A DNA stretch of 64,000 nt from positions 1-64,000 of the forward strand of contig JANXAQ010000061.1 of the NCBI GenBank assembly GCA_025062105.1, written 5' to 3'. The notes under the pieces are model-generated. The model did no database searches. It was not told the origin of the DNA and saw only the letters and a list, made by a program, of their open reading frames with translations. Source of the stretch: Thermoguttaceae bacterium. Lineage in GTDB: Bacteria; Planctomycetota; Planctomycetia; Pirellulales; Thermoguttaceae. Below are positions 1 through 5,881 of the stretch, piece by piece. How positions within the stretch are numbered: the stretch's first letter is position 1; each line of letters opens with the position of its first letter. Position numbers and translations under genes: made by a program.

Positions 1-770
1 ACCCTTTTTACGCGACATAGAAGATTTCTCCTCTAAGAAAGGAACCAAACAACCAAACGGGAGAGACTCTTTTTCCCCTCTCCCCTCTGCGGGAGAGGGT
101 TAGGGTGAGGGCCAAGTCGCCAGGCTCACAGGAGCCTGGATTCCTGCCTGCGCAGGAATGACAGTCTTGGGACTTGGGATGCCTTTGCAGAACCGCTTCC
201 TTACAGGTGCGGCTGCGATGGCCCCTCACCCGGCCTCGGCGTTTGCCTCGGCCGACCTCTCCCACGATTGCGAGAGGCTCTTTTTTCCCCGCGCTTTGGG
301 AGAGGCAACAGGACTTGCGGCTTCGGAGGAAATATGTTAGGATAAAGGTGTTCCTACGAAGCCTACTTGGGCAAGCAGTTCTGTGGGGTCCGGCAATCGC
401 CGGTAAGCCACGCTTGGGGGCAAGGCAACAGGACCGAGCGGCTTGGCTTACGGCGGCTGAACCCAGGGGCTGCTTGCTTTTTTTCTTTGATTGGCGTTGG
501 CAGAGGCCCTCGGCAGCCTACCTACCCCGACTGCCGGCGGACCTTGCAACGCTTGGGCAACCCCCAGGATGCCTGCATTGCCGCCTGATGCGGACTTAGC
601 ACCTCTGGGGATTGGCCCCCTGGGGTAGCTTGTAGGATCTTGGTCGGTTTGGGCCTCCTTTGAACCATGTACTACTTGTTTTTTCCTAATTATCCCTCTT
701 CACTGGCGTGGGGAGTTGCCTAGTTGCTGTTGACCGAACCGAAGTCATCGTTTTCTTTTTTTCGCCCTTA
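1..770. other. No gene seen; GC-rich hairpin repeats
   Basis: I see no credible gene here. Two hairpins stand out: CCCTCTCCC at 76-84 with GGGAGAGGG at 91-99, and TTCCTGC at 141-147 with GCAGGAA at 152-158. CCTCTC/GAGAGG pairs again near 256-277. These resemble the dispersed extragenic palindromes common in many bacteria. The word GGCAACAGGAC occurs twice, near 304 and 423. Nothing explains 480-770. Confidence 0.5.
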
Positions 771-1360
771 TTGTATCGAAGCTCCATTAAAGGTTCGCTA
801 AAATTTTGTAAAATCTTGGTTAATCTACGGAAGTCTTTTGGGATTGATCAGCGGAAATCATTCTGCGGTTTAGAGCTTCCTGAATAGGGAACATTTTTAT
901 CTTTGTCTTTCTTTGGGCTCTTTTGTTTTTTGGAGTATTGTATCGGGATTCTGTTAAAAATGGGCTAATGGTTTGTAAAATCTTGGTTAATCTACGGAAG
1001 TCTTCTTTAGCTAATTAGTTAGCATGCTGGAGGGCTTTGGAAGGCCCAGGGAGGAAGAAACATTTTTTACTTTGCTCTCTTTTTCCAGCACCATATTTGT
1101 GGGAGTAATTGTATCGAGGCCGAATTAAGGGATTGTTAACGTTTTGTAAAATCTTGGTTAATTGGTTGGGTTCATTCTTGGGCTTTTTGGGCCTGAATGG
1201 GTTAGGGAACATTTTTTCTGGATATCTTTTTTCTTGCTTTTTTAAGGGGTTTTCTTATCTTTGTGGGGTGAGGTGGACTTTAGGAATCTTTTTGGAGGCA
1301 TTGTACCTGGGGTAGGTTAGCAATTGGCTAAGATTTTGTAAAAAATTGGTAAGGTTAAAG
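771..1360 (+). repeat. Degenerate tandem array, 4 units of about 170-190 bp
   Basis: Units begin with TTGTATCG (or TTGTACCT) at 771, 938, 1109 and 1301, giving periods of 167, 171 and 192 bp. About 30 bp into each is TTTTGTAAAATCTTGGTTAA; the fourth has TTTTGTAAAAAATTGGTAAG. In the first two this is followed by TCTACGGAAGTCTT. Units 1-3 then carry GAACATTTTT or AAACATTTTTT and a T-rich tail. Units 2 and 3 have a GGGC...GCCC-type hairpin in the middle. The array lies just beyond the 3' end of the minus-strand gene at 1355. A single related block lies near 5033-5080. Function unknown; a tandem small-RNA or protein-binding array is possible. Confidence 0.7.
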
Positions 1361-3484
1361 GGTACTTTTTTGGGGCTGGATTCCTCCGGTAAGGGGAGAG
1401 TTTGGGGAGTTAGCAGCGGCCGGATCGGCGCTAGGTGAAGTAATTTCCACGGCTAAAATTTCCACTACTAAGGGTTGCTGTTCTTGGAGCGAGCGAGGGA
1501 TTTGAGGCTGCAGGGGACGGATACGTATTTGCACCATTCGTAGCGAGGGGCCCTCCTTCGGACTACTAAGGGATTCGACCAGTAGGGCGGCCTCAGTGGC
1601 ACGCTGACGGGCTTTGGGCAAGCTGCGCTGTAGGCGTTCAGCAAGCCACTGCGGGCTGGCATTGGTCTGCCATCGGCTAACATACACAATTGTTCTATCG
1701 TCAGGAACCCTCCATCCCACCTGCTGGCTGCGCTGGGCCAGGTCGGCTTGCCAGAGGAAGATCGGCCGAAATGGCACTGAGACAGACAAAGAAAGGCCAA
1801 GCGGGGCCAACGTTTGCTCTTGGCTGGAATTGACCGAACCAGTGGCAAGCTGCTGTAAATTTTGCTCCAGGAATCGCTCGGTCGCCTGATCCCAAAGGGC
1901 AAGCCACTGCTTGGCCACCGGCAATAGGCTTTCATGGCGGGTTTTGGCATGCAGACCTGGTCGAGGCAGCTTGGCGGCCGTCGGCTTGGGCTTGGCCGAT
2001 GGATCTACCGGCACCAATGGATCAATCTCTTCATAAAGCAGGCGAGCTACCAGGACCAAAAAGCCTGGCTCAAAAACCAATTGCTCGACCTGGTTGCGAA
2101 TCGACTCGGGCCGCTGGGGCCAGCGCTGCGTTAGCCAATCGGCCAAAAGCCGACGGGCCCAACCGGCCGGAATCGTCATGGCCAGTTGGGCGGCCGCTTG
2201 TTCCAAGGCCGACTCCCCCGCCCCAAACATAGCCGCCGGCGACAACAGCCCTTGCAAACTGGCGGCCATCGTCGGCTGCCAAAGAGCCTGGGCCACCTGA
2301 CGAGCTTGAGCCAATTGCTCGGCCGGCTGATGCAACCCCTCGGGCAACCAAAGCACCTGAGCGGCCTGAGCACTCCAAAGAGCAAACTGACGCAAAATGG
2401 CCGCTCGCACCGGCCCACTGGTACGCGACGACTGCAGCAACACCACATTGGCAGAAAAATGATCCCACCGGGCCGGTACAAAGGCCTGCTCAATCCGCTG
2501 ACGCAACGACGGGGCTAAAGCCGGCTGATCCACATAGCGAGCCAACTGCTGCTGTAGCTCCGGCCGAGCTTGATTGGTCAGCACCCGCAAGGCCTCCTGC
2601 TGCAAGGCCTGCGCATGCAAAGCGGCTGAACGGACTAGAAGATTTTCCGGCCCTAAGACGGCCTGCAACAAGAGCCGATCATGCTCCGGCGCCGGATGAG
2701 CGGCCAAAGCCGCCAAGACCACACGCATACAGGTTAAATAGTCTTCCGTGGGGGTTTGGCCGCTCAGTAATTGCCCAAGCCCGTCCGCGGCCTTGGGGGT
2801 CTGCTGACTGGCTAGGGCCTGGGCCACCGCTTGCAGCACAGTTTCCGTATGCTGCGAGCGTCCAGAGGAGGCGGTGGAACTGGTAGCAACGGCGCCGCCT
2901 TGCACCCAAACCACATCCAACAACAATTCCACCAGTTCGGGATCACCACGGCGGAGCTGAGCCCAATGGGCCACCGCCTCCACAAACCGCTGCGGAAACT
3001 GCTGGCGAGCAAGCAGAAAATGCTCCGGCTTCCATTGATCCAGCGATTCGGGCAAAATCGGCTTGGGCTTAGGCGCCTGGCTGCCTTCGGCTTCTGAGTC
3101 GGCAGAGTTGGCTTGGGAAGCCGAGTTGCCGTTTGCCGAAGCCGGCTGCCCGCTGGTGCGCTGCTTCCGACGAGCGGCAGCCTGCTGACGAGCCTCTTCC
3201 TGCTGCTTACGACGTTCCTCTTCTTCGCGACGTTTAGCTTCCTCCGCGGCCCGGCGAGCTTCTTCCTCCTCTTCTTTGGCGCGTTGCTCGGCCAAGGCAC
3301 GCCACTCTTCTTCCGACATGCCGCCCCATCGGCCTTTGAAGTGAAGCGAACGGGGATCAGAAGAACTCCCACAGCCGCCGCAGCCAGCCCAACAGACCAC
3401 TAGTCCTGCCAACACCAGCATCCAAACCCATCGTGCCCAACCGGACGGCGTTGCCGCTTGAGCGATCACGGTCCTACTCCCCAT
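1355..3484 (-). CDS. Exported or lipoprotein-like protein with charged coiled coil
   Basis: Unrecognised family. With the start at 3484 the protein has 709 residues. A hydrophobic stretch at about residues 19-34 runs into Cys31, Cys35 and Cys38 (WAGCGGCG), which looks like a signal peptide with a poor lipobox or a membrane anchor. Residues about 55-107 are almost wholly Glu, Arg, Lys, Ala and Gln and should form a long helix or coiled coil. The remaining ~550 residues are Gln/Ala/Leu-rich and helical, without a motif I can name. An upstream in-frame start at 3622 would overlap the neighbouring gene by 83 bp and put 46 basic residues before the signal, so I chose 3484, 55 bp after the DUF1559 gene. 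The two are probably co-transcribed. Confidence 0.75.
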   Translation of the reverse strand: MGSRTVIAQAATPSGWARWVWMLVLAGLVVCWAGCGGCGSSSDPRSLHFKGRWGGMSEEEWRALAEQRAKEEEEEARRAAEEAKRREEEERRKQQEEARQQAAARRKQRTSGQPASANGNSASQANSADSEAEGSQAPKPKPILPESLDQWKPEHFLLARQQFPQRFVEAVAHWAQLRRGDPELVELLLDVVWVQGGAVATSSTASSGRSQHTETVLQAVAQALASQQTPKAADGLGQLLSGQTPTEDYLTCMRVVLAALAAHPAPEHDRLLLQAVLGPENLLVRSAALHAQALQQEALRVLTNQARPELQQQLARYVDQPALAPSLRQRIEQAFVPARWDHFSANVVLLQSSRTSGPVRAAILRQFALWSAQAAQVLWLPEGLHQPAEQLAQARQVAQALWQPTMAASLQGLLSPAAMFGAGESALEQAAAQLAMTIPAGWARRLLADWLTQRWPQRPESIRNQVEQLVFEPGFLVLVARLLYEEIDPLVPVDPSAKPKPTAAKLPRPGLHAKTRHESLLPVAKQWLALWDQATERFLEQNLQQLATGSVNSSQEQTLAPLGLSLSVSVPFRPIFLWQADLAQRSQQVGWRVPDDRTIVYVSRWQTNASPQWLAERLQRSLPKARQRATEAALLVESLSSPKEGPSLRMVQIRIRPLQPQIPRSLQEQQPLVVEILAVEITSPSADPAAANSPNSPLTGGIQPQKSTL

Positions 3485-3539
3485 CCGAAAGGTTGCAATC
3501 CGGTCCGAGCCCACAAGCCGGTTCCTGCTCACCCACCGA

Positions 3540-4805
3540 CTACTGGGCCACAATGTCCCGCAGCGACCAACCGCTAAAGACCTCCTCCGGCGGCCATTCC
3601 ACCTGGCCATCGGCAAAGCCATTGTTGGTGCTGGGCGTAAAACCGTTGTTGATCAAAAAGTCCTGATTGAGATCTTTCACCTGCCGCACGCTTCCATCGG
3701 CAAAAAGCACATTGCAATAGCCGCGATGCACCGGAGCAAAACCCCGATAGTCCTGAAGGGTTCTGTTCCAGCCAGCCCACCAGCCGTTCGGCCCAGTTCG
3801 GGGAGTCCCTGCGCTAAATGTCGGCGGCGTCATTTCGGGATTTCGGACCGGGCCGGTGGTGAAAGCTTTGGTCAGGAAAGTACCAGCCGGCACATTGCCC
3901 ATGGGCTGCTGGAGTTGGCCGACCGAAGCCCCACAACCCATCAAAGGTACTAGCGACTGAGGCACCGGCGAAGAATCCAATATAGCGGGCGAAAGCGGCC
4001 CGAAGGTGCTTGCCCGTGAGGCCAACGAGGCTTCACACCCACTTCCACCACTATACAAATTGCCGCTTGCATCCAACCGAACACCTGTACGAACCAAAAA
4101 CCAACTGGCGGTGTAGTTCGTATTGTAAAACTTTTTATAGATTTGGGACTCTACCAGTTGGACCCGGGCTTGGCTGCCAGAAGCTAGATTCCCTTCAATG
4201 ATCTGCCGACAGGGATTGACCTGTTGGGTGCCATCGGGCAGATCCTTGGGCGGACTACCAAGGTGATCGACGCAGGGATCGAGCGAACTAGCCGTAGCCT
4301 CCAGAAGTTGCTGATAGGTTTCCGTCAGCAGGGCTGGATTGGACGGACAAAGCATCTTGCCCACCGGCGTGCCTTGCCGAACCAGATCGGCCACCCAACC
4401 CACTTCGGTTACACAACCGTCCCGATTCCAATCCATCGCTCCCGAACAGTAGGTGCCATGAGTTTGGGCATGCGTCAGAAAACCGACATAGAACTGTTTA
4501 AGATTGTTTTGGCAAGTAGTGGATCGGCTGGCTTCTCGGGCAGCATTCAAAGCAGGAAACATCAGGCCCAAAAGGATCGAAATAATCACAATGACCACCA
4601 ACATTTCTACTAGCGTAAAAGCCTTTGGCCGAGGCCGAAATCGGTCCGGCAGCTGAACAGAAGCCGCACTAATAGCCCCCAAAACCCGAGAACCGGTTTT
4701 GGAAGGCAATTGCCTGTCGGAAGCATGTTCCGGGCGCAAACTTCCTTCCGGCAGCTTCTGGCCAGGCGTAGGTTGGTCGAACGTCCAAAGTCTATCGGTC
4801 TTCAT
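3540..4805 (-). CDS. DUF1559 pseudopilin-like protein
   Basis: This has the typical planctomycete DUF1559 layout: a type IV prepilin-like N-terminal helix (FTLVE at residues 63-67, hydrophobic to about 85), the following NAAREASR, and the C-terminal FADGSVRQ box near 368-375. Family members are thought to be pseudopilins of type II secretion-like systems processed by prepilin peptidase. Two oddities: a 60-residue leader before the helix, much longer than usual, and Ala instead of Gly immediately before FTLVE, which may impair processing. AAAGGAGAG stands a few bases before the ATG at 4805 and supports the long form. It is first in a two-gene minus-strand unit. Confidence 0.9.
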   Translation of the reverse strand: MKTDRLWTFDQPTPGQKLPEGSLRPEHASDRQLPSKTGSRVLGAISAASVQLPDRFRPRPKAFTLVEMLVVIVIISILLGLMFPALNAAREASRSTTCQNNLKQFYVGFLTHAQTHGTYCSGAMDWNRDGCVTEVGWVADLVRQGTPVGKMLCPSNPALLTETYQQLLEATASSLDPCVDHLGSPPKDLPDGTQQVNPCRQIIEGNLASGSQARVQLVESQIYKKFYNTNYTASWFLVRTGVRLDASGNLYSGGSGCEASLASRASTFGPLSPAILDSSPVPQSLVPLMGCGASVGQLQQPMGNVPAGTFLTKAFTTGPVRNPEMTPPTFSAGTPRTGPNGWWAGWNRTLQDYRGFAPVHRGYCNVLFADGSVRQVKDLNQDFLINNGFTPSTNNGFADGQVEWPPEEVFSGWSLRDIVAQ

Positions 4806-5881
4806 GGAACTCTCCTTTTACTTAGAAGAAAAAAGAGGAAAAAAAGGAACGGAGGCGCACCCCCTGGACGGTAGCTGCCGTTGAACCGGGCCAAGCATGG
4901 TGGACCTTCACCGCTTGAGCCCTCAAGGAACCGATCTGCCCCAGGGCCAGAAACCAGCTCCTGTAGCCGAAGCTGCCAGCAACCGTCTGATCGGCAACCG
5001 TCTAAGGGGTATTTTTTGGGCATTGTAGAAAAGCCACGTAAAGCAAATATCAAAGTTTTGTAAAAATTCTGTTAGCGAATTGCTTCTTTCAGGGGAACAG
5101 GTGCCAATCCGAAGGGTTGCTACCAAAGAGGGGTTGTCGGACTCTGCCATGGTTTGCCTAATCCAGATCGTTTGCTTCTACCATCTATTCCTGCCTTCTT
5201 ACTATTCCGGCCTTCTTCACAGTGCCGGCTTTCTGGAGCCTAGAGATCGAAGGCCCAGGCCTCCTTCGGTGCAGAGAGTCCAATCCTGCGGAAGATATGG
5301 GAAGCAAAAAAAACGAGATACAATCCTTTAAGAAAAAATCCGAGGATACTTTGCCCAGACGGCTATAATTCAATAAATGGAATTGACTTTTGCGTAATTT
5401 CGGGGGAACGAATCCCAACCAACGGCGGAGTTCGGCCCGAGCTTTCCCCCAGCTCTCCGATCAGCCGGCAACAAGGCAGACCAGGCCCTGGATTTGGCCC
5501 ACTGCAAATACCACAAAGGTGTAGGCTACACCATCCTCGTAGGCAGCCATTCGGAGTGCTGACCTCCTGAGTTGAAAGGGCCCCCTACCACCGGGGTGCG
5601 GCCTATACCACCTGCCTAGGCCTCCATTCTGGGTGCCATCGGCGCCTTGTAAACCGTTGGCTCACACCAGCAAGCTATACCCAGCTGAATGTCTTGAAGT
5701 TCCGCCAAATGGAAATAAAATGTTGGCCCACACCAGTACCGGCCAACCGAGGACCAGCTACTGGATGTGGGCCGGGGAACCGAGCCACACAGTTCCTAAG
5801 GTCCACACTGCCCCTTGCTACCAGCAAGCCCAACTGGGGTCGGAAAAAGGCTAACGAAGAACATCCTGCGAACATCCTGCG
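4806..5881. other. Gap without a recognised gene
   Basis: This stretch separates the minus-strand pseudopilin pair from the plus-strand mvhD-like gene. Near 5033-5080 it has a solitary ATTGTA...TTTTGTAAAA block like the units of the array at 771-1360. From 5400 to 5880 the sequence is GC-rich and looks like decayed coding DNA, but I cannot assign it. A 29-codon hydrophobic reading frame is present on the minus strand at 5461-5550 (see findings). GAACATCCTGC is duplicated in tandem directly before the start at 5882. Confidence 0.4.

Follow-up and report, generated by a model that had tools for sequence, protein, structure and literature searches.

A four-copy array of predicted Pho-box promoters upstream of a pilin-like DUF1559 gene in a Thermoguttaceae bacterium

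The start of contig C273 of a Thermoguttaceae bacterium (genome G000, 6.07 Mb in 345 contigs) carries a degenerate tandem repeat, raising the question of whether the repeat encodes small RNAs or is a place where a protein acts. We analysed a stretch of 64,000 nucleotides beginning at base 1 of this contig (hereafter, the window). A sequence-only reading had described a four-unit tandem array with a detached single copy near 5033, and had proposed either tandem small RNA genes or a protein-binding array at promoter-like spacing. The description of the repeat was borne out. A repeat search of the window recovered a 69-nt unit four times, at 769, 936, 1107 and 1299 (spacing 167, 171 and 192), along with a partial fifth copy at 5052-5074, confirming that the repeat is genuine. 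Exact matches to the core ATTGTA-N(22-30)-TTTTGTAAAA lie at 770, 1108, 1300 and 5022 and at no other place in the 6.07-Mb genome, and unit 2 (937) is one base off this pattern, in the second block.

All five copies read on the minus strand, where each is a 54-nt box of four 11-bp direct repeats (YTWAC-N6), 4 nt and TACAAT; in an example copy the register runs TTAACCAAGAT TTTACAAAATT TTAGCGAACCT TTAATGGAGCT TCGA TACAAT. From the fixed minus-strand positions we drew a 25-position layout (four YTWAC half-sites at period 11 plus TANAAT), to which the five window sites conform at 23-24 of 25, the next site that is not merely a shifted register scoring 19. The predicted promoter units are unit 1 at 770..823 (repeats 823-780, 4 nt, -10 TACAAT 775-770; 23 of 25), unit 2 at 937..990 (-10 at 942-937; 24 of 25), unit 3 at 1108..1161 (-10 at 1113-1108; 24 of 25) and unit 4 at 1300..1353 (-10 at 1305-1300; 24 of 25); the lone copy occupies 5022..5075 (-10 at 5027-5022; 23 of 25). 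The TACAAT follows the fourth repeat by 4 nt in 5/5 window copies, placing a -10 at a fixed distance, and each -10 is followed, on the minus strand, by an A-rich stretch.

The 11-bp period is pronounced. Across seven copies, five from the window and two from a same-genus comparison genome (G001), the four YTWAC half-sites match at 18-19 of 20 positions; among the other periods between 6 and 16, the highest mean is 13.3. Sites of at least 22 of 25 arose in none of 200 dinucleotide shuffles of the whole window and in none of 5000 dinucleotide shuffles of 660-1400, and a control in which the layout was set to eight other periods (7-10, 12-15) reached a maximum of 19. As the layout was derived from these same copies, such controls demonstrate order rather than identity, and the identity of the box rests on other loci. 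Two earlier candidates were set aside: a minus-strand TTTACA-N17-TAA promoter was replaced by the 11-bp repeats, which explain more columns, and plus-strand promoters, judged by eye, were dropped because the flanking genes point the opposite way.

The same layout precedes genes for phosphate uptake. We located pstS by TIGR02136 in 11 genomes and scored the upstream regions of three members of the genus (G000, G001 and G002) and seven others, leaving out one genome with a partial match (G003) and second copies. All three genus members searched carry the layout 131-154 bp before the pstS match, with TAGAAT as the -10, and the seven other upstream regions reach only 14-18 of 25. R1, a model built from the sequences alone of the seven copies at DUF1559 loci, was searched in four genomes. 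Directly below its training copies it placed the pstS boxes of G000 and G001, at full length and with weak E-values (0.112 and 0.166); it did not list the pstS box of G002. Among 29 fetched loci it also recovered a pstS box in G026, as well as two boxes 268 bp apart (25 and 24 of 25) before the DUF1559-A gene of G030, from another genus. A weight matrix built from pstS boxes alone ranked the five copies among the top eight sites of the window (scores 11.0-23.3); because 30 block shuffles also produced scores as high as 18.9, we did not use the matrix as a statistic.

With this shared element in hand, the small-RNA proposal can be weighed. It takes the units for plus-strand small RNA genes in tandem, and it draws on T-rich runs and on GC hairpins in two units. 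The T-rich tails are present, but we reinterpret them as the A-rich stretches downstream of the minus-strand -10s, and the hairpins, though drawable in two spacers, show no clear gain over shuffles: the six spacer folds (three spacers, both strands) have z scores of -1.33 to +0.73. No Rfam family reached its gathering score within the window, and what is conserved is the minus-strand box common to pstS; units and species have in common the 54-nt box and not a hairpin. We therefore rejected small RNA genes, an explanation to which we attach almost no probability. The other proposal, a protein-binding array, is strongly supported by these comparisons, on the opposite strand.

To survey the family, we built a second model from 13 boxes (nine DUF1559 loci and four pstS) and searched 119 family genomes, tallying all 25 non-training matches at E<1e-3 and leaving out those at E 0.001-0.01. 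All but one (24/25) precede PstS-, PstC- or PhoB-type, phosphoesterase, DUF1559 or ORF755-type genes. The same-strand downstream gene encodes DUF1559 in 11/25 (four of them near-identical sites in G141), a PstS-type binding protein in 3/25, a BPD_transp_1 permease resembling PstC in 3/25, a calcineurin-like phosphoesterase in 3/25, a PhoB-type regulator in 2/25 and an ORF755 homologue in 1/25; one match (1/25) lies in a phoB/pstS intergenic region, and the last (1/25), near a contig end, has an unassigned downstream gene. In further family genomes, beyond the genus, pstS is preceded by a box. Four model matches above 1e-3 were inspected as well: G008:C241 (before pstS), G002:C168, G022:C42 and G017:C282. 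In an AT-rich family member, five model matches or sites lie near two calcineurin-like phosphoesterase genes (L201 198-3115), two of them 162 bp apart, and in G002 a site of 22/25 (L137 3725-3778) stands before a protein of ~1138 aa with no Pfam match.

A consensus pattern search allowing up to two mismatches, with the reversed pattern as control, returned 61 matches in 32/119 genomes. With the AT-rich genus g9 excluded, the pattern matched 36 times and its reverse 0 times; within g9 the counts were 25 and 6. The 23 non-training matches outside g9, which overlap heavily with the sites of the 13-box tally, fall before pst, PhoB-type or phosphonate-binding genes (11/23), before DUF1559 or ORF755-type genes (7/23), or before unassigned or unrelated genes (5/23, including one ankyrin protein and one unscanned). 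The 25 g9 matches stand outside this tally; by eye, several precede PstC-like or DUF1559 ORFs and others are simple repeats, and four of the 25 were examined as 13-box-model or related loci, or with gene calls only. A strict three-repeat pattern gave no enrichment in 60 genomes (6 matches versus 11 in the control). By comparison, the identity of the element as a Pho box is well supported.

Boxes of this kind are known elsewhere. The PhoP promoters of Bacillus subtilis carry TTAACA-like repeats at 11-bp spacing that overlap the core promoter, and the boxes described here resemble them in both respects. As described in PMC4415409, Pho boxes are built of 11-nt units in direct repeat, which are bound in head-to-tail fashion; the E. 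coli PHO box, recognized by the winged-helix response regulator PhoB, likewise consists of 11-nt direct repeats and likewise lies before pstS. The half-site is different (YTWAC here, CTGTCAT in E. coli), four units rather than two are joined to the -10, and four promoters stand in a row. Cyanobacterial SphR boxes, as described in PMC1906773, comprise three or more CTTAACCT repeats, joined by 3-bp linkers, and lie ahead of pst and phosphatase genes. They share the 11-bp period and are close in sequence, but belong to another phylum, and the text consulted shows neither a fixed distance to TANAAT nor a tandem promoter array.

The setting of the array is clear from comparison with G001. On the minus strand of the window the order is the lone box, DUF1559-A (3540..4805, minus strand), ORF755 (1355..3622, minus strand), the four-copy array and DUF1559-B (1..18, minus strand, cut by the contig end after six codons); G001 has a box, DUF1559-A, an ORF755 homologue, one box and DUF1559-B. 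DUF1559-A has matches to PF07596 (DUF1559, SBP_bac_10) and to PF07963, the N-terminal methylation motif, and in a scan of named genome records the sole relative returned was a contig of an uncultured Thermoguttaceae MAG, at 85% identity over this gene. ORF755, by eye a putative lipoprotein, has no Pfam match and is 60% identical to its G001 homologue from residue 40 on; its true start is probably downstream of 3622. For DUF1559-B, the Pfam assignment comes from the G001 gene, whose first six codons are identical to the window's first 18 bases on the minus strand. This identity and the G001 gene order mark the array as the upstream region of DUF1559-B. DUF1559-A and DUF1559-B would be pilin-like surface proteins. 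The lone box lies 216 bp before the DUF1559-A start and aligns with a G001 counterpart, and unit 4 starts immediately past the stop codon of ORF755. The next gene behind DUF1559-B in G001 (L048 284-2620) matches double zinc ribbon and PilM_2, which may connect the module with a type IV pilus-like system.

G001 thus has one copy at each of two places where the window has four and one. The downstream flank of unit 1 is common to the single G001 copy, suggesting that the array arose by tandem duplication. A plasmid-borne element was dropped, as the plasmid records held no match to the array. A AAAAATGTTCCC-like motif, weakly repeated on the minus strand in three spacers (887-902, 1052-1070 and 1201-1213), is probably a remnant of tandem duplication. 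The duplication history bears on whether every copy works. One copy suffices in G001, unit 1 is the one with the shared flank, and the inter-unit spacers have diverged, all of which would fit Pho sites of which a single array copy acts as promoter, the rest being leftovers of the duplication or decoy sites that titrate PhoB. Despite the spacer divergence, though, 4/4 units keep 23-24 of 25 positions, TACAAT included, and conserved units between diverged spacers suggest selection on each unit; we regard a single working copy as unlikely. More than two consensus matches within 1 kb occurred nowhere but in this window among the 119 family genomes. Same-strand box pairs were found in G030 (268 bp) and in G018 (495 bp, one of them before a PstS-type gene), and the model adds a pair in G129, 162 bp apart, whose second member has E 0.0024.

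A further question is which regulator binds. The PhoB orthologue of this genome (G000:C59) shares 62% identity with the regulator linked to pst in G017, and its best NCBIfam model is TIGR02154 (PhoB), at 238.5 bits against a cut-off of 296.2, that is, below it; the PhoB-type proteins of the comparison also score below that cut-off. A box precedes phoB in G007, G017, G034, G036 and G008, and no site of at least 18 was found at phoB in the genus itself (stretches L156-L158, from G000, G001 and G002). Pho-box autoregulation of phoB is not universal. Another member of the OmpR/PhoB family, responding to a signal other than phosphate, could bind the boxes: 11-bp half-site spacing is not exclusive to PhoB within that family, response regulators are numerous in the genome (the PhoB query has 34 matches), and the genus's own phoB is without a box. 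Set against this, boxes throughout the family stand before pstS and before genes for PstC-type proteins, PhoB-type regulators and phosphoesterases, and we consider a different regulator improbable.

Linkage of phosphate genes to the DUF1559 module is common but not universal, as judged from 14 of the 15 DUF1559-A loci at E<1e-50 (that of G000 excepted), each viewed over at most 20 kb and some over less because the contig ended. phoB-phoR-pst genes adjoin the module in 3/14 (G007, G017 and G035), sites of at least 21 lie near it in G001, G030 and G020, and 8/14 have neither a site of at least 21 nor pho/pst linkage, with generic ABC-ATPase matches in two. No close homologue of DUF1559-A occurs in G002 (best E 7.8e-18). 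Genes for Exo_endo_phos, Metallophos or PHP-domain proteins follow several boxed DUF1559 genes from other genera (L197, L205, L206 and L208), hinting at operons of DUF1559 and enzymes under phosphate control.

The best explanation, which we hold to be probable, is that the window carries four tandem PhoB-activated phosphate-starvation promoters and one detached copy, all on the minus strand. Sequence comparison establishes the layout of the boxes, their orientation, their place before pstS and other phosphate genes, and the gene order; from these we infer PhoB binding, phosphate control and the start sites. Four 11-bp half-sites would leave room for two dimers, and, ending 4 nt before the TACAAT -10, would cover the -35 region and replace a -35 element. 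Upon phosphate starvation, phosphorylated PhoB would occupy the half-sites in head-to-tail order and bring in RNA polymerase. From the lone copy, transcription would run through DUF1559-A and probably ORF755 as well. The array lies between ORF755 and DUF1559-B; transcripts from it would begin at four nested positions, about 763, 930, 1101 and 1293, and read left into DUF1559-B. The extra copies may raise or tune output or sensitivity. Several points count against PhoB promoters: DUF1559-B would have a leader of about 745 nt; the genus's phoB has no box, and 8/14 module loci have neither box nor pst linkage; the R1 E-values at pstS are weak, and the G002 pstS box is missing from the R1 list; seven pstS regions score low; the strict pattern gave no enrichment; and the PhoB-type proteins fall below the TIGR02154 cut-off.

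The kind of element is known, and the four-copy array and the DUF1559 targets appear to be new in the literature searched. No paper title there concerned a planctomycete Pho regulon, subscription papers lying mostly outside the search. We propose tentatively, at somewhat less than even confidence, that the DUF1559 pilin-like proteins of Thermoguttaceae, the ORF755-type putative lipoproteins and exported phosphoesterases form a phosphate-starvation surface or secretion system, whose second pilin-like gene is driven here by a dose-setting cassette of four duplicated Pho promoters unseen in the other 118 family genomes searched. The Hxc secretion system of Pseudomonas aeruginosa combines pilin-like parts with a secreted phosphatase under phosphate control; the likeness to the DUF1559 locus, in pilin-like parts and phosphate control, may be one of analogy only. 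DUF1559 is a heavily expanded, uncharacterised planctomycete family. Nine DUF1559 genes are up in cold and salt shock (PMC2754498), and Planctomycetales have at least 41 prepilin-motif genes per genome, most with DUF1559 (PMC8567305). Tying a defined DUF1559 subset to phosphate starvation would give a testable condition for function; the box could help to predict regulons in uncultured planctomycetes, and the array of four copies could serve as a natural test of promoter number versus output.

Two minor features lie between the array and DUF1559-B. Window positions 60-265 are missing from the aligned G001 counterpart and look like inserted repeat elements, with a short palindrome (ATTCCTGCCTGCGCAGGAAT) and GC-rich repeats. 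A hairpin in the leader (371..477, minus strand) has a fold z of -2.59 in the window and -4.04 in G001; of its 36 pairs, 21 are unchanged in G001, 4 changed on both sides, 5 broken and 6 gapped, and of 11 genomes, G000 and G001 alone carry its pattern. It is followed by a T-run on the plus strand, so it could also be a terminator.
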